Shown here piece after piece: positions 44,987 to 57,015 of a stretch of DNA of 64,000 nucleotides (within the stretch, counting starts at the first letter, position 1; each line of letters begins with the position of its first letter). The translations under genes were made by a program, and so were the position numbers. Source of the stretch: Flavivirga sp. 57AJ16 (GTDB lineage Bacteria; Bacteroidota; Bacteroidia; Flavobacteriales; Flavobacteriaceae); the NCBI RefSeq assembly GCF_028736925.1, contig NZ_JAQZAT010000011.1, forward strand, positions 124,001 through 188,000. Reading direction: 5' to 3'. Under the pieces are notes generated by a model, which saw nothing but the letters and a program-made list of their open reading frames with translations, did not search any database and was not told where the DNA came from.

Positions 44987-45028
44987 TAAAAGTAGTTGTT
45001 GTATTATATGATACAACAACTACTTTTA
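44987..45028 (-). terminator. 18-bp perfect hairpin between DUF4856 and imelysin genes
   Basis: TAAAAGTAGTTGTTGTAT (44987-45004) and its exact complement (45011-45028) enclose a 6-base loop. It lies 30 bp past the DUF4856 stop. It could terminate or attenuate read-through or protect the DUF4856 mRNA 3' end, giving different expression of the two lipoproteins. Confidence 0.65.
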
Positions 45029-45057
45029 TAATAAATAGTTAATCCTAACTTTTATTT

Positions 45058-46257
45058 TTAGCTTCCTGCCTGTGCAGTTGTAAAGCTAAACTTAGCTGAT
45101 ATCGTATTTGATATAGTGTCTAAAGCTTGTTCTGTTAAATCCCAAAAGCCATTCCCGTTCATAAGTGTTGCAATAATTGCATCTACTTCTGCCTTTGTAA
45201 AATATGGTTCGTTAGTTCCTGGTTTTCTTGTAAACTGCAAACTGTAAACAAATCCAAAACCTTCAGACAAATTATGGAATGCTGCAGCATTATCGGTTCC
45301 TAAACTTCCTTTCCCTTGTTGTAAATAATGTACAGCTCTAACACCAATAACCTGAGATATTTTTTCTCTGATAATTTCGGCTTGCTCATCTCTAACATCA
45401 TAGTTTTTAGCTACAATTGCTGCTCTTCCCAATTTAAAAGCATTATAAACATCTGCAGCTATACCAGCAAAATCTGTATCGTTTTCTACTCTAGACAAGT
45501 ATTTGTTTAGAAAACTATCAGCATTTAATTGTGGCGCTTCAGGGTTTTCTTCATTGCCGTATAAATAACCAAATGCTTCATCCCATTTATGCTCCATAGT
45601 AGTATACGACTTACCATCTTCTACAGTTTCAGCATCATTATCCGCTACATTTGTCCCAGCATCCAATACATCAGAACTCAAATAATTATTTAACATTTGA
45701 TCTACCATTAAAGCACCAATTAAAGACTTTGCAAATGCTTGATTGTACTCCAAGCCTTTTGCATTAATGTAACGAGTAGAACCACCTCCAGCTTCTTGTA
45801 AATTACCAGCATTACCTGGTGTAGCTGTTGTATTCCAGTTAGGGAACACATCTAAAACTTGCGATTCTATCCAATTGTCAAAATCTGCTTTAATAGCGTT
45901 TGCCTCAGTGGTATTTGCAGAAAAATAATCTACTGAAGCAGCTGTTTTACTTCTAATGCTCTTATCAGATGCATTTAAATCTGGATCACTAAAATCATTC
46001 TCGTTTTCAACATGAGCAAACATAGCATCTAAAGCTATTTTTGTTTGTAAATTATCTTTGAATGCAGCCACTAATTCTTCCGCCATTTGAATTCTTGTTG
46101 TTTGCCCACCAAAATTTACTGTCGAGCTTCCATTTCTTACAAACTCATAAGTTGCAGGAGCTACAACATCATTATGCTTACTTCCTCCATCGTCATCACT
46201 TGAACATGATTGAAGCAATGCCAATACCACAAAAAGACTTAGTACTATTTTTTTCAT
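45058..46257 (-). CDS. DUF4856 domain-containing lipoprotein
   Basis: A 399-residue lipoprotein (VLALLQSCSSDDD, Cys near residue 18) of the DUF4856 family. Conserved stretches include YEFVRNGSSTVNFGGQTTRIQM after the Asp-rich linker, AKGLEYNQAFAKSLIGALMVDQMLNNYL and KWDEAFGYLYG. The function is unknown, but DUF4856 genes regularly precede imelysin genes, as here, and the protein is predicted to sit in the outer membrane. It is first in the locus, behind a consensus promoter. Confidence 0.85.
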   Translation of the reverse strand: MKKIVLSLFVVLALLQSCSSDDDGGSKHNDVVAPATYEFVRNGSSTVNFGGQTTRIQMAEELVAAFKDNLQTKIALDAMFAHVENENDFSDPDLNASDKSIRSKTAASVDYFSANTTEANAIKADFDNWIESQVLDVFPNWNTTATPGNAGNLQEAGGGSTRYINAKGLEYNQAFAKSLIGALMVDQMLNNYLSSDVLDAGTNVADNDAETVEDGKSYTTMEHKWDEAFGYLYGNEENPEAPQLNADSFLNKYLSRVENDTDFAGIAADVYNAFKLGRAAIVAKNYDVRDEQAEIIREKISQVIGVRAVHYLQQGKGSLGTDNAAAFHNLSEGFGFVYSLQFTRKPGTNEPYFTKAEVDAIIATLMNGNGFWDLTEQALDTISNTISAKFSFTTAQAGS

Positions 46258-46318
46258 TTTAAAGTAGATTAATAATTTTTATTTAGACTTATTATAAATA
46301 ATTGTTATTTTAAAGTTG

Positions 46319-46349
46319 CAAATATAAAACTCATAATTATTTACACAAA
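46319..46349 (-). promoter_or_regulatory. Perfect consensus promoter of the DUF4856-imelysin locus
   Basis: Minus strand: TTTG (46349-46346), exactly 19 bp, TATATTTG (46326-46319), then CAAC. Full match to the Bacteroidota consensus. The start codon is 62 bp downstream. No Fur-like dyad was recognised with certainty in the AT-rich DNA around it. Confidence 0.75.
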
Positions 46350-46404
46350 GTTTATTTAGATTAAATTTAAATAAATTTTGAAATCAACGCTTTAACAAAA
46401 AAAA

Positions 46405-47268
46405 TCAATGATAAAAATTAAAAATCTTAGAAGCTTCATTATAAGCACTCTCAAAACTGAGTGCATTTAAACTATTATTTTTATTTGAAGTAAAGTATGA
46501 CAATAGTTTTTCGGTAGGCATATTGCCCGTAAGTTCATCTTTGGCCATAGGGCATCCACCAAAGCCCTGAATGGCTCCATCAAAACGTTTGCAACCAGCT
46601 TTATAGGCCGCATCCACTTTTTCAAACCAAGTGCTTGGCGTTGTATGTAAATGTGCTCCAAATTCAATATTTGGATATAGGGGGATTAAATTTGAAAAAA
46701 GATAATGAATACTTTCGGCATCAGAACTTCCAATAGTATCACTTAAAGATAAAATTTTCACGCCCATCTTCGAAAGTTTTTCAGTCCACTCCCCTACTAT
46801 ATCAACATTCCAAGGGTCTCCATAAGGATTACCAAATCCCATAGATATATAAACGACCACTTCCTTTCTTGATTTATTAGCAATTTCCAATATTTCTGAA
46901 AGGGTTTCAACAGATTGCACTATCGTTTTATGCGTATTACGCATTTGAAAGTTTTCTGATATTGAAAACGGATACCCTAAATAATCTATTTCTGGATGCT
47001 TACTTGCAGCTTCCGCACCTCTTGTATTGGCAATAATGGCCAGTAACTTACTGGTCGTTTTAGAGAGATCAAGTTTTGACAACACTTCGGCAGTATCGAC
47101 CATTTGGGGTATGGCCTTAGGAGAAACAAAACTACCAAAATCGATAGTATCAAAGCCAACGCGAAGTAACGATTGGATATACTGCACTTTATTCTCTGTT
47201 GGAATAAAGTCTTTAATACCCTGCATGGCATCTCGTGGGCATTCAATAATCTTTACGTTGTTTTGCAT
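46405..47268 (-). CDS. Hydroxymethylglutaryl-CoA lyase
   Basis: A 287-residue TIM-barrel lyase that splits HMG-CoA to acetoacetate and acetyl-CoA in leucine degradation. The N-terminal ECPRDAMQGIKDFIPTENKV has the Arg-Asp pair of the HMGL-like barrel, and GAIQGFGGCPMAKDELTGNM carries the catalytic Cys of the lyase signature (GCPMA) that separates it from homocitrate and isopropylmalate synthases. Asp in LSDTIGSS and the HLHTTP motif supply metal ligands. Single gene, transcribed toward the convergent end of nothing obvious; 147 bp separate it from DUF4856. Confidence 0.9.
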   Translation of the reverse strand: MQNNVKIIECPRDAMQGIKDFIPTENKVQYIQSLLRVGFDTIDFGSFVSPKAIPQMVDTAEVLSKLDLSKTTSKLLAIIANTRGAEAASKHPEIDYLGYPFSISENFQMRNTHKTIVQSVETLSEILEIANKSRKEVVVYISMGFGNPYGDPWNVDIVGEWTEKLSKMGVKILSLSDTIGSSDAESIHYLFSNLIPLYPNIEFGAHLHTTPSTWFEKVDAAYKAGCKRFDGAIQGFGGCPMAKDELTGNMPTEKLLSYFTSNKNNSLNALSFESAYNEASKIFNFYH

Positions 47269-47335
47269 TTAGTCAAAAAAAATGAAAAGATAAAAATACT
47301 ATTAATTTAGTTAAGCTATTAACGATTTTTAAATA

Positions 47336-47496
47336 GAAGTGATTTAAACTTTTTTGATTGAAGCGAAAAATAGCTGATTTTTATTCGTTTTGAAGCCTTT
47401 TTTGCACTTCATAGCAGCGTTACGAAGTAATAAAAAGACGAAAAAAGGGTGAAAAGGAGCATTTTGCAGCCAATTGAAAAAAGTTTAAATCACTTC
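47336..47496. mobile_element. 161-bp palindromic element, family P, copy A
   Basis: Terminal arms GAAGTGATTTAAACTTTTTT (47336-47355) and its exact complement (47477-47496) enclose a second hairpin centred on CATAGCAGCGTTACG, flanked by ACTTC and GAAGT. It aligns along its whole length with 51868-52030. Both copies lie in intergenic DNA. Non-coding. Confidence 0.78.
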
Positions 47497-47518
47497 ATAA
47501 ATAATTTTTTGAAACGAA

Positions 47519-47560
47519 CTATCCCCAAGACAAATCCTAGGGGAAATTCTTTTCGATTTA
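47519..47560. repeat. Hairpin with AATTCTTTTCGATT tail, copy 1
   Basis: TCCCC ... GGGGA closes a small hairpin followed by AAATTCTTTTCGATTTA. A second hairpin of different stem sequence but with the same tail (GGAATTCTTTTCGATTAA) is at 61676-61712. Apart from this element and the palindromic element at 47336, the gap 47269-47649 shows nothing else. Confidence 0.45.
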
Positions 47561-47649
47561 TCTGTAAGTTTAAATACAATTAAACGACTTTACCTTTATC
47601 TTATAGAATGCATTGAAAAACTTTAAATGAGTTAATAAATAACCATACC

Positions 47650-48585
47650 GTGAAGCATATTAATTTCCTTTTTATTTTTTTTATTTCCTGGTCTTCTTTT
47701 GGTCAAAGCACAGCAAATTATACGGTCACTTTTGAAAGTATTTGGGAATGGACTGCCAGCAATGCCACCGATGGTCAAAGTACCATTGATTTACCTTCAA
47801 ATGCCCATTGGTCACCATTAGTAGTTACGACACACCAAACTGCAAATACTTTTTTAATGATGGGAGCGGCTGCTTCTCCTGGTATTGAATCCATTGCAGA
47901 AACTGGTGCTACAAGTATTTTTGTCACTGAAGTTAATAATAATCCTGATGCCGATAAGGTGATTGTTGGCAACGGACTTGATAGTGCCAAAGGAACCATT
48001 TCCATAAACAGCTTGGAGGTTAGCGAAAATTTTCCGTTAGTTACGCTGGTTTCAATGATAGCCCCTACCCCAGATTGGTTTATTGCCGTTAATGGTGTTA
48101 CCCTAAGGTCTGGAAATAATAGCATTAACAATGGGTGGAAAGACACATTTACGTTGGATTTGTTTCCTTACGATGCTGGTACCGAAGACGGAGACGGTTA
48201 TTCTTTAAACAATGCAGATAGCAACCCCATAGGAGTTATAACAAGTCGATCGAATATAACACCTTTTAATAATAAAAAAATTGGCACTGTTACCTTTACA
48301 TATAATTCATCGACCCTAAGTACAGAAACTATTAATAAGATTGATATGGTAAAAATATTCCCAAATCCCACTAGAGGAAGCATTACGATTTCCCATCTTC
48401 AAAATATTGAATTAAAGGCTATTGAAGTGTATAACATATTAGGCTGCTTAGTAAAACAAATAGATGTTAAACAAGGGGTATCAAAATTAAATGTTAATCT
48501 GACAAACCTGAATAAGGGTATTTATCTATTAAATTTAAAAACTATAGATGGTGCAAACAGGTCACAAAAATTAGTAATCAACTAA
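47650..48585 (+). CDS. Spondin-domain T9SS type A secreted protein
   Basis: A 311-residue exported protein starting at GTG, signal peptide ending SFGQ near residue 19. Residues ~22-215 match the spondin_N fold: YTVTFESIWEWTA, HWSPLVVTTHQTANTFLM, GIESIAETG and DWFIAVNGV are its characteristic strands. The last ~80 residues are a type A sorting domain (KIFPNPTRGSITISHL ... KGIYLLNLKT ... QKLVIN). Spondin-like domains are adhesive in animals. In bacteria they are of unknown role. It is followed 84 bp later by another T9SS-A protein gene. Confidence 0.85.
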   Translation: MKHINFLFIFFISWSSFGQSTANYTVTFESIWEWTASNATDGQSTIDLPSNAHWSPLVVTTHQTANTFLMMGAAASPGIESIAETGATSIFVTEVNNNPDADKVIVGNGLDSAKGTISINSLEVSENFPLVTLVSMIAPTPDWFIAVNGVTLRSGNNSINNGWKDTFTLDLFPYDAGTEDGDGYSLNNADSNPIGVITSRSNITPFNNKKIGTVTFTYNSSTLSTETINKIDMVKIFPNPTRGSITISHLQNIELKAIEVYNILGCLVKQIDVKQGVSKLNVNLTNLNKGIYLLNLKTIDGANRSQKLVIN

Positions 48586-48690
48586 ATATTAAGTATATAA
48601 TTGAAGGGTAAGCGATAAAATTTACGTTTTAACGTTTTTATTATTCATCTTTTTTATTAAGGTATACATTTGGAAAAATGTTTAGCCCTA

Positions 48691-50634
48691 ATGAATATTT
48701 TTACTACTGACCCTAAATCCTTACTTCTTTCGATATTTTTATCGGTTTCATTTTATATGGTCTCCGGACAGCATAAATCAGAACCTGGTTGTGGCACCAT
48801 TACAACGTCTGAATCCCTTGAATATATACAGAGCATAAAACCACAAATTAAGCAATACGAACAAGCATTTTATTTTAGTAAATCCGGTAAAGGTAGTGCT
48901 CGTAAAATAATGAATTCCATTCCTATTAAAGCCCATATTATTAGGTCTTCAAATGGTACAAACGGCCTTGACATTTTAGATCTTAATAAGGCTATTGAAA
49001 ATCTTAACGCTATTTATGCAGAGGCCTTTATGGAGTTTTTCCTATGCGATGGTATTAATTATATAGATGATGATGCCTTTTGCCATTTTAAAAAAGGCAA
49101 CGAAAGTGATTTAAAAGAAACAAGCTATACCCCTGGTTTAATAAATATTTATTTTATCAATTATTTGGAAGACACTTCCGAGGAAAGCATTTGTGGCTAT
49201 AGTAATAATGTTGGGAGACATAATGATATCATTGTTATGAAAAACAGCTGTACAACTAATGATTCTTCTTTAGCACATGAATTAGGCCATTTTTTCTCTT
49301 TAACGCATACACATGGGCCTGATAATAGTAAAATGACCACTGAATTGGTAGACGGGAGCAACTGTGATACAGATGGTGATGGTATTTGTGACACACCAGC
49401 AGACCCTATGCTCTCCAACAATAATATTAATAATTTTTGCGAGTTTACAGGCGTAGAAACAGATGCAAATGGGCAGACCTTTAACCCCGATACAGGTAAT
49501 TTAATGTCCTATTCCAGAAAGTCATGTAGAAACCATTTCACATTTCAACAACTGGCTAGAATATATGCTTTTTATCAAACTACGAAAAACTATTTAGCCT
49601 GTCCTTCGTTTAACGCTAATTTTACTGCCGATACTAGTGTGACCTGCAAGGAAACATTAACTGTGAATTTTAAAAATAATTGCTCTAATATTACCCATTG
49701 GCAATGGGATGTAGACTCAGATGGTATTATTGACTATACAGTTCAGAACCCTTCGCATACCTACGATACAGGGATATATGATGTAACACTTACAGTTTCT
49801 AATGCGTCTAAAACGATAAAGAAAACCTTTTCAAAATTCATAAAAGTTGGTACAGAAACAAATCCTTTAGAAGAAGGTTTTGATGGTTTTGAAATAGCGG
49901 GAGACAAGGGCTGGACAACAATAGATGCTTCTGAGAATGGTTATAATTGGTATTCAAATTCAGGAAAAACAGCTACAGAGGGCACCGGGCCTTTAAATGA
50001 CAATACCCTAAATGGCACCACAGGAACCTATATTTATGCAGAAGCTTCTGGAGCGGAACCAGGGGATGTTGCCGAATTTATTTCCCCATGTATTAACATA
50101 ACAACGCTATATACCGAGTTGGAATTTTCATATCATATGTTTGGTAAAAATATAGGAGCATTACATGTAGATATTAAAACCGATAGCGGTTATATTAATG
50201 ATGTCGTTCCTGCACTTTATGGCAGTCAACAATCCAATCAAAATGATGCATTTTTAAAGAAAACCGTTGATCTATCTTCTTATGTAAATCAAACTATAAA
50301 AGTTCGTTTTAGAGCTATAAGAGGTGCCAGTTGGGATGGTGACATTGCTATTGACGATATTCTCATTAAGAATGTTGAAAAAGAACAAAACCCATCTAAT
50401 ACATTATTAGATATAAAAGCATATCCAAACCCTATTATAAGCAATTTGCTTTATATTAAACATAGAAACACGGAAGCTTTTTTAAGTTATCAGATTTCTA
50501 ATTTAGTTGGACAAGTATTCTTATCTGGAGCATTAACCAATCAGCCAATTAATGTGAGCAGTTTATCTTCTGGAACTTATTTCTTAACAATTAATAGTGA
50601 AAATTCTAGAATCGTTAAGAAGATTGTCAAGTAA
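48691..50634 (+). CDS. M43-type zinc metalloprotease with PKD, MAM-like and T9SS type A domains
   Basis: A secreted protease of about 647 residues. The longest frame begins with TTG at 48670, but the ATG at 48691 gives a compact signal peptide (LLLSIFLSVSFYMVSGQ) and is preferred. The zinc site HELGHFFSLTH (HExxHxxxxxH, about residues 196-206) is followed by the CDGDGICDTPADP-type Ca2+ region and the Met-turn LMSYS of metzincins of the pappalysin group. Then come a PKD domain (FKNNCSNITHWQWDVDSDG), a MAM-like adhesive domain (~410-570, IDDILI) and a type A sorting domain (AYPNPIISNLLYIK). Confidence 0.87.
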   Translation: MNIFTTDPKSLLLSIFLSVSFYMVSGQHKSEPGCGTITTSESLEYIQSIKPQIKQYEQAFYFSKSGKGSARKIMNSIPIKAHIIRSSNGTNGLDILDLNKAIENLNAIYAEAFMEFFLCDGINYIDDDAFCHFKKGNESDLKETSYTPGLINIYFINYLEDTSEESICGYSNNVGRHNDIIVMKNSCTTNDSSLAHELGHFFSLTHTHGPDNSKMTTELVDGSNCDTDGDGICDTPADPMLSNNNINNFCEFTGVETDANGQTFNPDTGNLMSYSRKSCRNHFTFQQLARIYAFYQTTKNYLACPSFNANFTADTSVTCKETLTVNFKNNCSNITHWQWDVDSDGIIDYTVQNPSHTYDTGIYDVTLTVSNASKTIKKTFSKFIKVGTETNPLEEGFDGFEIAGDKGWTTIDASENGYNWYSNSGKTATEGTGPLNDNTLNGTTGTYIYAEASGAEPGDVAEFISPCINITTLYTELEFSYHMFGKNIGALHVDIKTDSGYINDVVPALYGSQQSNQNDAFLKKTVDLSSYVNQTIKVRFRAIRGASWDGDIAIDDILIKNVEKEQNPSNTLLDIKAYPNPIISNLLYIKHRNTEAFLSYQISNLVGQVFLSGALTNQPINVSSLSSGTYFLTINSENSRIVKKIVK

Positions 50635-50714
50635 TTTAGGATTGAACAAATAATAGGATTAAGAATTAATGGCAATACCAAACTGTATTCAAGAATTTTA
50701 AGCAACTTTCACGC

Positions 50715-51770
50715 TTACTTTTCAAGCAAGGCTTTATTAATTCGTTTTACAAGGCTTGGGCCCTCATAAATAAAACCGGTATAGATTTGTACTAAGTCTG
50801 CACCAGCCTCTATTTTTTCAATCGCATCTTTCTCGGTATGTATACCTCCTACTCCAATTATAGGAAATGCCTTATGGCTCTTATCTGATAAATATTTTAT
50901 AACCCTTGTACTTTTATCTTTTATAGGTTGGCCGCTTAAACCTCCATGGCCTATACTTTCAAGTTGTTCTTTTGGCGTTTTTAAACCACTTCTGTCCATA
51001 GAGGTATTACTAGCTATAACACCGTCTAATTTTGTTGCAGCTACAAGCGCAATGATCTCATCTAATTGGCCATCATTTAAATCGGGAGCTATTTTTAAAA
51101 GAATTGGTTTTGCACTTCGACTGTGCTCGGTATGACCATTTTCGAATGTTGCATTTGCCTTTTGTACAGCGCCTATTAGCTCTTCTAAATAATCCTTATC
51201 ATTTAATTTAGCATGACTTCCTACGTTCGGACAACTAACATTAAGCACAAAATAGTCAACATAAGGGTGCAATGCATTAAAACACTCTAAATAATCCTTG
51301 GTATAATCTTCAGGTTTTGTATGGGTATTTTTTCCAATATTACCACCAATAATCAATTTTCCCTGATTCTTTTTTAATTGAGAAATAGCAGCTTCTACCC
51401 CTTCATTATTAAACCCCATTCGGTTAATAATTCCCTGGTCGCTTTTAAGCCTGAATAATCTTTTCTTAGGGTTTCCAGCTTGTCCTTTGGGCGTTACTGT
51501 GCCTATTTCAATAAAACCAAAACCAAAATTTGCCAGCTCGTTATATAATACCGCATTTTTATCAAAACCTGCTGCTAAACCTACAGGGTTTTTAAATGTT
51601 AATCCAAATAATTTTCTCTCTAACTTAACATTTTCAATGACGTACAAACTTCTAAAAACGGCTTTAAAACCAGGGATTTTAGAGGTCATTTTTATCAACG
51701 AAAATGTAAAATAATGAATCTTTTCAGGATCGAATAAAAAAAATAGAGGGCGAAGTAGTAATTTGTACAT
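50715..51770 (-). CDS. pyrD: Quinone-dependent dihydroorotate dehydrogenase (class 2) with in-frame repeat insertion
   Basis: A 351-residue FMN enzyme that oxidises dihydroorotate to orotate using membrane quinones. Class 2 traits: an N-terminal membrane-associating helix pair ([19 protein letters not shown]), [29 protein letters not shown] with the catalytic Ser replaced in the usual class 2 position, ASNTS and GVGGI. Residues ~212-220 (GHTEHSRSA) are encoded by a small palindromic repeat inserted in frame before the conserved [11 protein letters not shown] strand. The insertion lies in a surface-type loop, so the enzyme should stay active (inference). Confidence 0.93.
51111..51137 (-). repeat. 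In-frame dispersed-repeat half-element inside pyrD
   Basis: The plus-strand text CACTTCGACTGTGCTCGGTA matches the core arm of the MITE-like elements (compare TTCGACTGCGCTCA at 20315 and TTCGACTACCCTCAG as the complement at 39297-39311). Read in the pyrD frame it gives nine residues without stop or frameshift. Confidence 0.7.
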
Positions 51771-51785
51771 CCAGTATTATTTATG

Positions 51786-51816
51786 CAAAAATACTTCTAA
51801 ATAAAAAATTGGACAA
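51786..51816 (-). promoter_or_regulatory. pyrD promoter
   Basis: Minus strand: TTG (51816-51814), 20 bp, TATTTTTG (51793-51786), followed by CATAA. It is 16 bp upstream of the start codon. Confidence 0.55.
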
Positions 51817-51867
51817 TTCAAAAGCAAAAAAAATTAATAATCGTATTTTTAAGCCCATAATAGCCAT

Positions 51868-52030
51868 TGAACTGGTTTAAACTTTTTGGATTATAGCAAA
51901 AATTAGACATTTTGTGACCAGTTGAAGGTTTTTATTTGTTGCATAGCATCGCTACGGAACAAATAAAAGGCGAAAAGTGGGTGCAAAAGGGCAATTTTTT
52001 AGCCAATTATAAAAAGTCTAAACCAGTTCA
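51868..52030. mobile_element. 163-bp palindromic element, family P, copy B
   Basis: Terminal arms TGAACTGGTTTAAACTTTTT (51868-51887) and AAAAAGTCTAAACCAGTTCA (52011-52030) pair with one mismatch. The central hairpin TTTGTTGCATAGC/GCTACGGAACAAA matches the position of the one in copy A. It fills most of the gap 51771-52076 and ends 46 bp before the pepT start, so it may lie in the pepT leader. Confidence 0.78.
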
Positions 52031-52076
52031 TTAAGTTATTTCGCTCAAACCACACCAAATTCAAATTTTATTTAAA

Positions 52077-53315
52077 ATGATCACAAAAGAAAACATCATA
52101 AAACGATTTGTAAGTTACGTTACTATCGATACGGAATCCGATCCAACCTCAGAGACTACGCCTAGTACAAAAAAGCAATGGGATCTGGCTAATAAGCTAG
52201 CCGAAGAACTTAAAACTATTGGCATGCAAGAGGTTAGCATTGATGCTAATGCATATATCATGGCAACCTTACCAAGTAATGTGGATTATGATGTTCCAAC
52301 CATTGGATTTATTTCGCATTTTGATACCTCACCAGATTTTACAGGCGCTCATGTAAATCCTCAAATCATTGAAAATTATGATGGTCAGGATATCGTTTTA
52401 AATGCAGATGAAAATATTGTATTATCTCCCGACTATTTTGATGATTTACTTTTATATAAAGGGCAAACCTTAATAACAACCGATGGCAACACGCTTTTGG
52501 GTGCGGATGATAAGGCTGGAATTTGTGAAATTGTATCGGCTATGGAATATTTAGTGAACCATCCAGAAATTAAACACGGAAAAATAAGGATCGGATTTAC
52601 TCCCGATGAAGAAATAGGTCGAGGTGCACATAAATTTGATGTCGAAAAATTCGGTGCAGATTGGGCCTATACTATGGACGGAAGCCAAATAGGCGAATTA
52701 GAATATGAAAATTTTAACGCTGCCAGTGCCGTAGTAAAAGTAAAAGGTAAGATTGTACATCCTGGATATGCTAAGGGAAAAATGATAAATTCTATGTACA
52801 TCGCTCAGGAATTTATTAATTCTTTACCACGGATGGAAACTCCAGAACATACCGAAGGGTATCAAGGGTTTTTCCATTTGCATACTATGAAAGGAGATGT
52901 TGAAGAAACAGTTTTAGAATATATTATTCGCGATCATGATAAAGGTCATTTCGAGGCACGCAAAGAAGTTATGCAAAAGCTAACTAACGAATTAAATTCG
53001 CAATACGGTAGGGAAGTTATTACCACCGAAATTAAAGATCAATATTATAATATGAAAGAAAAGGTCGAGCCTGTAATGCATATTGTAGATATTGCAGAAA
53101 AAGCCATGAGACAGCTAGAGATCCAACCACTTATTAAAGCGATTCGTGGTGGTACCGATGGCTCACAATTGAGTTATATGGGATTACCATGTCCAAATAT
53201 ATTTGCCGGCGGACATAATTTCCACGGCCGCTATGAGTATGTGCCTGTTGAAAGTATGATTAAAGCAACAGAAGTGATCTGTAAAATTGCGGAGTTAACA
53301 GCTTTAGAGAAATAA
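52077..53315 (+). CDS. pepT: Peptidase T (tripeptide aminopeptidase, M20B)
   Basis: A 412-residue cytosolic zinc aminopeptidase that removes N-terminal residues from tripeptides. The first metal motif is SHFDTS (His81, Asp83), the bridging Asp144 is in LGADDKAG, and the catalytic/metal pair Glu178-Glu179 is in TPDEEIGRG. The C-terminal [33 protein letters not shown] holds the last ligand. Length is standard. Transcribed alone. Confidence 0.95.
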
Positions 53316-53455
53316 AAAAACCTTTAGTCCATATCGATCAAAAAAACAGATCTGTATTTTGACTCTGAAACATATAGTAGAAAAGATTATAAATCTTTGA
53401 ATTTGCTTTTTATTTCAGAATAATTTTCTGACATTCACATTTCTTAAATAAATTT

Positions 53456-53986
53456 ATGGATCTAGACCAGCTTATTTTAAAATTCCAGCAAAAAGACGAA
53501 AGGGCTTTTGAAAGTTTGTATAACATGTACAGCGATAGTATGCATGGCGTTATATATAATATCGTTAGAGACCATAACATAGCAGAAGAAGTCATGCAGG
53601 ACGTTTTCATTAAAGCATGGCATAAAGCAGATACTTATTCTAGCAAAAAAGGTCGTTTTTTTACATGGATTTTGAACATTTCCAGAAATGCTGCCATAGA
53701 TAAAACACGGTCTAAAAATTTTAAGAAGTCAAAACAAAACCTAGATGCCAATTTTTTCGTAGATATACTTGAAACCAGTGACAGCTTAGATAATAAGACA
53801 GATGCCATTGGTGTTAGTAAATTTGTAAACAAGTTAGCGAAAAAATGTATAGAGGTTATTGAGCTTTTATATTTTAAGGGCTATACACAAACTGAAGCAT
53901 CGGAAACTCTTGACATGCCCGTGGGAACCATTAAAACCAGAAATAGAAATTGTATTAAAGAGTTAAGAAGCATGGTTTTAAATTAA
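53456..53986 (+). CDS. ECF RNA polymerase sigma factor (SigK-like) with RskA partner
   Basis: A 176-residue sigma-70 family protein of the extracytoplasmic function type. Region 2 is ERAFESLYNMYSDSMHGVIY ... EEVMQDVFIKAWHKADTY, with the -10-reading helix, and region 4 is IELLYFKGYTQTEASETLDM followed by PVGTIKTRNRNCIKELR. It is followed 3 bp later by a membrane anti-sigma factor, so the pair forms a classic signal-responsive switch. The ATG at 53456 is close behind an AT-rich region without a clear consensus promoter. Confidence 0.92.
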   Translation: MDLDQLILKFQQKDERAFESLYNMYSDSMHGVIYNIVRDHNIAEEVMQDVFIKAWHKADTYSSKKGRFFTWILNISRNAAIDKTRSKNFKKSKQNLDANFFVDILETSDSLDNKTDAIGVSKFVNKLAKKCIEVIELLYFKGYTQTEASETLDMPVGTIKTRNRNCIKELRSMVLN

Positions 53987-53989
53987 TTT

Positions 53990-54796
53990 ATGGATATTAA
54001 AGCATACATAGAATCTGGAATATTAGAGCTATACGTAGCAGGTACACTTTCTAAAAAAGAAAATAAGGAAGTGTATAATCTTATGCAGCAACATCCTGAA
54101 ATATTGCAAGAAGTTTTAGAAATTGAATCTGCTATCATAAAATTAACCGCTTCGGCTTCCCAACTAAAAAATAATGATTCATTACAGAACATAAAGCAAG
54201 CATTGGGTTTTAATATTAATGATGGCTCCAAGGTTATTTCTATAACTAAACCAAAATATAACTGGCTAACTTATTCGGGTTGGGCAGCTTCTATAATTTT
54301 AGCTTTAGGCTTGTTATGGACCATCAATCAAAACAATCAGTTAAGATCCGATATTCAAATATCTGAAACGCAGCAATCTTTATTAGAAACTCAAATTGCC
54401 AATTCAAAAAACAGCTTAATCGAGGCTAAAAATTTGATAAGTGTTTTACGCGACAACAATATTACTCAAGTACCTTTAGCAGGTCAAGGTCATTTTGCCG
54501 ATACATATGCCAAAGTCTATTGGGATAAAAATTCGCAGCGAATTTTCTTGGATGTATTGGGTTTACCAGAGCCTCCTGAAGGAAAGGTCTATCAGGTTTG
54601 GTCTTTAAAATTAAGTCCGCTAACACCTACCAGTTTAGGAACCATCGATAATTTTATCACTGATGAGAACAAAATATTCGAAATAGAAAATGTAAACGAA
54701 AGTGAAGCATTTGGTATTACTTTAGAACCTGCTGGCGGTAGCGAATCACCAACTATGGAACAATTATATACCTTGGGTGTAGTGACATCAAGTTGA
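53990..54796 (+). CDS. Anti-sigma factor, RskA family
   Basis: A 268-residue membrane protein. The cytoplasmic N-terminal ~75 residues (IESGILELYVAGTLSKKENK) form the anti-sigma domain that clasps the sigma factor. One transmembrane helix follows (YSGWAASIILALGLLWTI, about 92-109), then a coiled segment and the periplasmic RskA C-terminal domain (PPEGKVYQVWSLKLSPLTP ... FGITLEPAGGSESPT). Co-translated with the sigma gene upstream. Release probably depends on regulated proteolysis, as in mycobacterial RskA. Confidence 0.9.
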   Translation: MDIKAYIESGILELYVAGTLSKKENKEVYNLMQQHPEILQEVLEIESAIIKLTASASQLKNNDSLQNIKQALGFNINDGSKVISITKPKYNWLTYSGWAASIILALGLLWTINQNNQLRSDIQISETQQSLLETQIANSKNSLIEAKNLISVLRDNNITQVPLAGQGHFADTYAKVYWDKNSQRIFLDVLGLPEPPEGKVYQVWSLKLSPLTPTSLGTIDNFITDENKIFEIENVNESEAFGITLEPAGGSESPTMEQLYTLGVVTSS

Positions 54797-56791: not shown

Positions 56792-57015
56792 GTTCAACTA
56801 GCTGTTTTGAATGCATTGCTTCGCAATTTTTCAAAACAGAGATATCAAACCTGAGATCCCGTTGAAAAAGCGGGATTAGTTCAACTAGCTGTTTTGAATG
56901 CATTGCTTCGCAATTTTTCAAAACAGAGATATCAAACCTGAGATCCCGCTGAAAAAGCGGGATTAGTTCAACTAGCTGTTTTGAATTCATTGCTTCGCAA
57001 TTTTTCAAAACAGAG
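56792..57015. repeat. 87-bp tandem direct repeat, 2.6 copies
   Basis: Units start at 56792, 56879 and 56966, exactly 87 bp apart, each GTTCAACTAGCTGTTTTGAA onward. Each full unit contains two hairpins: TTTTGAA...TTGCTTCGCAA...TTCAAAA and ATCCCG(T/C)TGAAAAAGCGGGAT. The third copy stops before the second hairpin, 73 bp upstream of a sigma factor start. Because 87 is a multiple of three, a frame stays open on the minus strand; it is not thought to be a gene. Confidence 0.88.

Follow-up and report, generated by a model that had tools for sequence, protein, structure and literature searches.

A palindromic repeat family of Flavobacteriaceae with IS5-type ends and a covarying hairpin that may act as RNA

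The stretch of DNA analyzed here (the window, 64,000 nucleotides of contig NZ_JAQZAT010000011.1 from Flavivirga sp. 57AJ16, positions 124,001 to 188,000) carries two copies of an imperfect palindrome of 161 bp. Judging by sequence, we consider it highly probable that this palindrome represents an IS5-type family of miniature inverted-repeat transposable elements (MITEs) in Flavobacteriaceae. Selection for the folded strand appears likely, and the odds that RNA is the acting form are about even. To the reading as a whole, an IS5 MITE similar to ERIC and Correia whose hairpin is selected and probably acts as RNA, we would assign a probability of roughly 0.62.

The repeat family and its mobility

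Copy A, of the GAAGTGATTTAAAC type, occupies 47336..47496 on the plus strand between the target-site duplications ATA (47333..47335 and 47497..47499). Its left outer arm (47336..47355, plus strand) is an IS5-type end, and the right outer arm (47477..47496, minus strand) mirrors it perfectly over 20 bp. The left-arm block GATTGAAGCGAAAA (47356..47369, plus strand) covers alignment columns 26, 27, 30 and 31, which are unpaired and conserved, and the hairpin tip CATAGCAGCGTTACG lies at 47410..47424 (plus strand). Copy B, of the GAACTGGTTTAAAC type, occupies 51869..52029 (plus strand) between two ATT duplications (51866..51868 and 52030..52032) and has its tip CATAGCATCGCTACG at 51942..51956 (plus strand); its arms mirror each other with two flaws, at position 12 (A vs C) and at position 20. 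The first-pass annotation, which had pointed out the pair and the compensatory changes in its arms, placed copy A exactly, but the positions 51868 and 52030 that it gave as the limits of copy B are bases of the flanking duplication. Its description of the outer arms, of different sequence in A and B and mirrored in both, is correct, and the central change, ACTTC/GAAGT against TTTGTT/AACAAA, with a G-U pair in copy A, can be read directly from the sequence. Dinucleotide shuffles of the regions 47330-47500 and 51862-52036 fold much less well than the regions themselves, both as RNA (z -6.6 and -6.4) and as DNA (z -5.9 and -7.1); in each case 0 of 200 shuffles did as well.

The repeat is present in at least 49 places of its own genome, dozens of which were already matched by a search with copy A. 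All 49 scored own-genome candidates pass E 1e-4 with a covariance model built from 31 copies, which makes 49 a lower bound; the palindrome pair is no chance occurrence. A covariance-model search of the family, as the first-pass annotation had proposed, matches 35 of 199 sampled Flavobacteriaceae genomes, own genome counted. At the level of the order, 3 of 60 sampled genomes match, one being the own genome and the other two weak and from a single genus. DNA matches to copy A occur in 11 of 12 genomes of its own genus; two genomes outside the genus have weak ones. Complete units of 160-161 bp, with an end on either side, are found in records, several of them metagenome assemblies, of Croceitalea, Aquimarina, Gelidibacter, Lutibacter, Galbibacter, Confluentibacter, Sediminicola, Kordia and Flagellimonas, and the length across several genera is mostly 158-163 bp, most commonly 160 bp. 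The repeat is thus dispersed and multicopy and contains no transposase gene, as is the case for MITEs. No Rfam family reached its gathering threshold in the window interval 45000-54000 (a search at E up to 5 gave six weak hits), plasmid and phage records contained nothing that matched copy A at E 0.01, and we found no description of the repeat in searches of an open-access library, where absence is not proof.

The copies were gathered by similarity searches, with one left-arm pattern and with the covariance model, and are not a random sample; model match counts in further genomes include both strands of one palindrome and do not represent copy numbers. The left-arm scan gave at least 81 matches, 70 with both ends, 10 without a right end and one extending beyond the edge of its locus; 62 copies of 145-165 bp among the matches listed were used, and 57 were added once known sequences had been removed. 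The further loci were picked by highest score from genomes fixed beforehand, with the exception of G094 (1 locus); 7 of the 61 were already among the family-survey loci, and 56 were used, as 5 had no recognizable ends. Four of 108 rows, of low similarity, were left out of the alignments but kept in the duplication count.

Some copies deviate from the common form. In 12 of 104 copies (L015, L018, L019, L020, L021, L022, L026, L039, L085, L090, L149 (left arm) and L151 (right arm)) a 23-nt insert, TACCCAGTCAAGCTGAGCACATG or a variant of it, occupies a fixed site right after the outer GTTTAAAC and has no mirror in the opposite arm; it was excised from these 12 copies ahead of alignment. The insertions in L083, L099 and L151, from three genomes, have the left flank ttattttttt in common and may go back to one ancestral event; the 23-nt insert is present in L151 and absent from L083. 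REP-like sequences of the CCTGCCTGCCGGCAGGCAGG kind reside within several copies (L006-L009, L015, L026), and short derivatives of about 50-76 bp have kept both ends and lost most of the interior (L054 3602-3650, L057 1557-1607, L159 303-378).

The flanks speak for transposition with a target duplication of fixed length. An exact 3-bp duplication, most often ATT or AAT, borders 77 of 108 copies, compared to 12.8 when pairings are shuffled; for 4-bp repeats, the count of 2 of 108 is what chance would give (1.7 expected). The 3-bp duplication is also found for 46 of the 62 scan copies (among the matches listed, and partly overlapping the 108) and for 35 of the 56 further copies. ISL2-type IS5 elements generate 3-bp ANT target duplications.

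A candidate partner insertion sequence (IS) has ends like those of the repeat. Decayed elements with such ends in genomes G012 and G010, whose fragments look IS5-like by eye (the G012 fragment, taken by itself, matches no Pfam family at E 0.001), led to ISs with an open transposase frame in genera other than Flavivirga. In a protein search across the family, transposase relatives were detected in 15 of 397 genomes. Sixteen of 18 examined IS loci have an end pair (picked for fewest mismatches at 400-1000 bp spacing), in the form GAAGTGATTTAAACTTTTT on the left and GAACTCATTTAAACTTTTT on the right, or variants of these. The distance spanned is 902-929 bp in 13 of the 16; 8 contain an open frame of more than 280 aa, and 9 have an exact duplication of 3 bp, the same length as for the repeat. 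The 290-aa transposase at L213:823-1692 scores 119.6 bits against the NCBIfam model NF033580 for IS5 (cut-off 110) and also matches Pfam DUF4096 and DDE_Tnp_1. The outer ~19 bp of the repeat match or nearly match the ends of this 902-929-bp IS5-family IS (the end of copy B is 1-2 bases off), and in one genome, G158, open ISs and dozens of repeats occur together. The 3-bp duplication and the shared IS5-family ends together identify the repeat as a MITE-type element. Its interior is a different matter. In blastn comparisons of 150 distinct copies with 8 IS copies, matches are terminal, most often of 18-25 bp, and no similarity extends past the ends, the top "inner" hits also falling on IS ends. 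The repeat therefore does not look like an internal-deletion derivative of the IS, which is the usual, though not universal, origin of MITEs.

The suggestion of the first-pass annotation that this could be a hairpin-transposed element holds in so far as the element is mobile, judging by the 3-bp duplication, the IS5-type ends and the DDE signature. The single-stranded hairpin route of Y1/RAYT transposases is not supported, in view of the 3-bp duplication and of the Y1 loci of the own genome (G000; C23:79776, C5:95805, C1:577435, C12:403054, C12:403635, C49:127861 and C4:132922), since the ends, left-arm block and tip of the element are all missing from the stretches fetched around these seven transposase matches. 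A pair of ends about 760 bp apart (C9:87499-88258, L038 1000-1759) was also considered as an autonomous element and discarded, because a REP-like stretch and other sequence, but no transposase-sized open reading frame (ORF), lie between them.

Covariation along the hairpin

Alignments of 104 and then 161 copies, with the structure derived from the copies' own energy folding, give a consensus of one single long hairpin with 62-63 pairs. When changes are mapped onto a tree of 150 distinct sequences, these pairs show 64 double Watson-Crick changes, while sliding the partners by 1-4 columns leaves 0-9. Among 31 sequences, 90.0% of cells are paired (82.1% when shuffled), and both sides have changed in 147 cells, as opposed to 52.3 +/- 6.7 in shuffled and 26-47 in slid controls. 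By region, about 15 double changes fall into the outer 19 pairs, 41 into the middle and 9 into the tip (rounded means), and the most doubly changed pairs, with 5 events each, are the outer pairs 4-157 and 6-155 and the interior pair 51-111. The hairpin proposed by the first-pass annotation is thus borne out over the whole stem, interior included. Because most double changes lie in the interior, end recognition alone is insufficient as an explanation, and the palindrome cannot be put down to transposition only.

Covariation was also tested against a tree-based null of the R-scape type, in our own re-implementation. At E 0.05, 6 of 62 structure pairs pass when tested within the structure, and of the 60 best-ranked among 12,246 column pairs, 15 belong to the structure. 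Conservation is not confined to paired positions. Nine of 36 unpaired columns are kept in 28-30 of 30 representatives: A26 (28), A27 (30), G30 (29), A31 (30), A37 (29), A75 (29), A105 (30), A106 (29) and A133 (30).

Strand, orientation and rival explanations

The two strands do not fold equally well. The RNA folding energy is -52.6 kcal/mol for the plus strand and -41.8 kcal/mol for the minus strand, with the plus strand lower in 159 of 161 copies. The plus strand also folds better in 30 of 30 representatives and in 55 of 56 further copies, counts that have to be read in the light of the common ancestry of the copies. G+T content was rejected as the cause of the strand difference, as its plus-strand mean is 0.503 and it exceeds one half in 79 of 150 sequences. 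In the representatives, the ratio of G.T to A.C cells is 146:41 for pairs from plus-strand folding, 66:32 for pairs common to the folds of both strands, and 71:104 for pairs from minus-strand folding.

Orientation relative to flanking tandem genes, as defined by a simple ORF caller, is equal in the own genome and skewed in the scan set (29 co-directional to 5 opposed, among the matches listed). A repeat of the test at the further loci, set beforehand, gave 26 co-directional and 9 opposed copies (p 0.006). Pooled, with 2 of the 56 further copies and 5 scan duplicates removed and with no flanking ORF on one side for 52 of 215 copies, the ratio is 73:38 (p 0.0012), and outside Flavivirga it is 44:10 (p 3.4e-6). 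These p-values assume independence of loci, which is only partly given, and the split by genus was made after the data had been seen. An age effect, with random orientation of young copies and selective retention among old ones, was rejected as the source of the bias (39:23 vs 34:15, p 0.55). Avoidance of convergent gaps is weak (8 of 105 elements vs 29 of 197 gaps, p 0.096). The orientation data give moderate support to an RNA-level effect that would vary by lineage.

Several results weigh against a selected hairpin that acts as RNA and is moved by an IS5-type partner. Over all column pairs only 2 pairs, both structure pairs, pass the covariation null, and in the smaller alignment it is 1. 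Single changes from Watson-Crick pairs, about 406, are roughly six times as frequent as the 64 double changes, and in 7 of 104 rows the bases at pair 6-155 are a G.G mismatch, copies of this kind having multiplied in F. amylovorans. Uncompensated arm changes, which the first-pass annotation had regarded as evidence against a conserved fold, do therefore occur, although double changes still far exceed those in the slid controls. Mean conservation is lower for unpaired (0.76) than for paired columns (0.83), the nearly invariant unpaired columns being just 9 of 36. How far G.T exceeds A.C is sensitive to the choice of pairs: in the representatives the ratio shrinks to 62:55 if Watson-Crick content is the sole criterion for choosing them. 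On internal branches it is 55:22, but slid controls lean alike (232:126, p 0.29), for which reason we dropped this bias as proof of RNA; on terminal branches the excess is modest (125:71 vs 365:315 in slid controls that reuse the same changes, p 0.014). In Flavivirga, the genus of the window, orientation is unbiased (29:28, different from other genera at p 0.0012), and in G158, with its open ISs, it is reversed in the 7 tandem cases (1:6). Both copies in the window are flanked by divergent ORFs, 46405-47268 (minus) and 47650-48585 (plus) for copy A and 50715-51770 (minus) and 52077-53315 (plus) for copy B, and are hence uninformative on orientation. Finally, a search of the own genome, a draft assembly of 52 contigs, with a 119-aa fragment as query revealed no transposase relative; it may have been missed owing to the draft state of the assembly.

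The strongest rival explanation is that the arms are kept alike by copying, either through template switching during replication of a quasi-palindrome or through arm conversion, without any function of the fold. We consider this unlikely. Template switching, as one published analysis argues, is able to generate and preserve RNA stems that carry multibase compensatory changes (PMC8794818). In our data, transversions account for 35 of 64 double changes, compared to 135 of 407 single changes, so that many double changes need no G-U intermediate, which is neutral or slightly in favour of arm copying, and a single internal branch accounts for 8 double changes, including three at neighbouring pairs. 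Overall, though, the clustering of double changes is not significant (4 of 20 adjacent vs 2.0 expected, p 0.12), and copying of one arm onto the other should erase mismatches, whereas the nine unpaired columns are intact in 28-30 of 30 divergent representatives. Moreover, the ratio of double to single changes climbs with terminal branch length (0/11, 1/44, 11/125, 7/62, 8/43), as fits stepwise change.

Alternatively, the folded strand could act as DNA, as a cruciform or a single-stranded hairpin that a host protein binds or that serves in transposition. The folding as DNA, which is far beyond that of shuffled sequences, agrees with this, and the conserved unpaired bases could form a double-strand protein site. 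A cruciform, however, is symmetrical between the strands, and yet one strand folds better and gene orientation is biased outside Flavivirga, while a single-stranded route is not suggested by a 3-bp duplication; we hold this explanation to be somewhat less probable than arm copying. Least probable in our estimate is that only the ends are selected, because the transposase needs them to match, and that the pairing of the interior is a relic of an inverted duplication. Pairs 4-157 and 6-155 of the outer stem belong to those with the highest numbers of double changes, the ends of the IS are of GAAGTG and GAACTC type, and 136 of 215 repeats have ends that are alike over 7 bases. Yet pair 51-111 in the interior is changed as often, the double changes are mostly located beyond the ends, and the similarity between repeat and IS is confined to the termini. 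Furthermore, the ends of the IS need no likeness themselves, since one and the same IS can combine GAAGTGA with GAACTCA.

Model and comparison with known systems

Together, the data suggest a model in which an IS5-family transposase would move the ~160-bp non-autonomous MITE in trans by way of its ~19-bp ends, producing the 3-bp target duplication. The interior would be a separate module that folds into a single long hairpin, in which the tip and some of the internal-loop bases are conserved, and selection would maintain this hairpin, for which covariation extends beyond the ends. Plus-strand RNA would act when the repeat sits in an untranslated part of a transcript, and the folded RNA might then alter processing or stability of the adjacent mRNA, or keep the insertion harmless, by analogy with Correia and ERIC. 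A bolder version, which we regard as doubtful, is that a new structured RNA module has spread through Flavobacteriaceae between IS5-type ends, that its loop bases and tip are read by a host factor, and that most lineages keep copies that are transcribed in the folding orientation, providing many operons with a shared signal for RNA processing or stability.

If the selected-hairpin MITE reading is right, the repeat would give a large bacterial family a widespread and well-delimited ERIC/Correia-like element for which there is a candidate partner IS. The question at stake is whether the stems of palindromes are kept by selection on RNA or by arm copying at replication, and many copies of varied age, together with open ISs in some genomes, make the family a test case for stem upkeep. 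The repeat also matters for annotation, as copies can sit just ahead of genes: the ORF at 52077 begins 47 nt past the end of copy B. Downstream of the repeat pair, the window further contains an 87-bp tandem repeat (56792-57015, 2.6 copies, 98% matches).

Like IS5-family MITEs, the repeat is short, non-coding and multicopy, with IS5-type ends and a 3-bp duplication; unlike them, it has an interior that is no recognizable IS remnant, and it folds and covaries over its whole length. REP and REPIN sequences, which depend on Y1/RAYT transposases, are likewise palindromic and present in many copies, but REP units measure 20-40 bp and not 160 bp, and the 3-bp duplication, the IS5-type ends and the absence of its motifs from the stretches fetched around the seven Y1 loci set the Flavobacteriaceae repeat apart. 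ERIC of enterobacteria and Correia (NEMIS) of Neisseria are intergenic palindromic repeats of a similar size class. They occur in other bacteria and presumably differ in sequence, and the Flavobacteriaceae repeat differs from them in its candidate partner IS and its 3-bp duplication. The likeness that bears on our model is at the level of transcripts, on which an effect has been reported for both, in the case of Correia via RNase III (PMC10969869).

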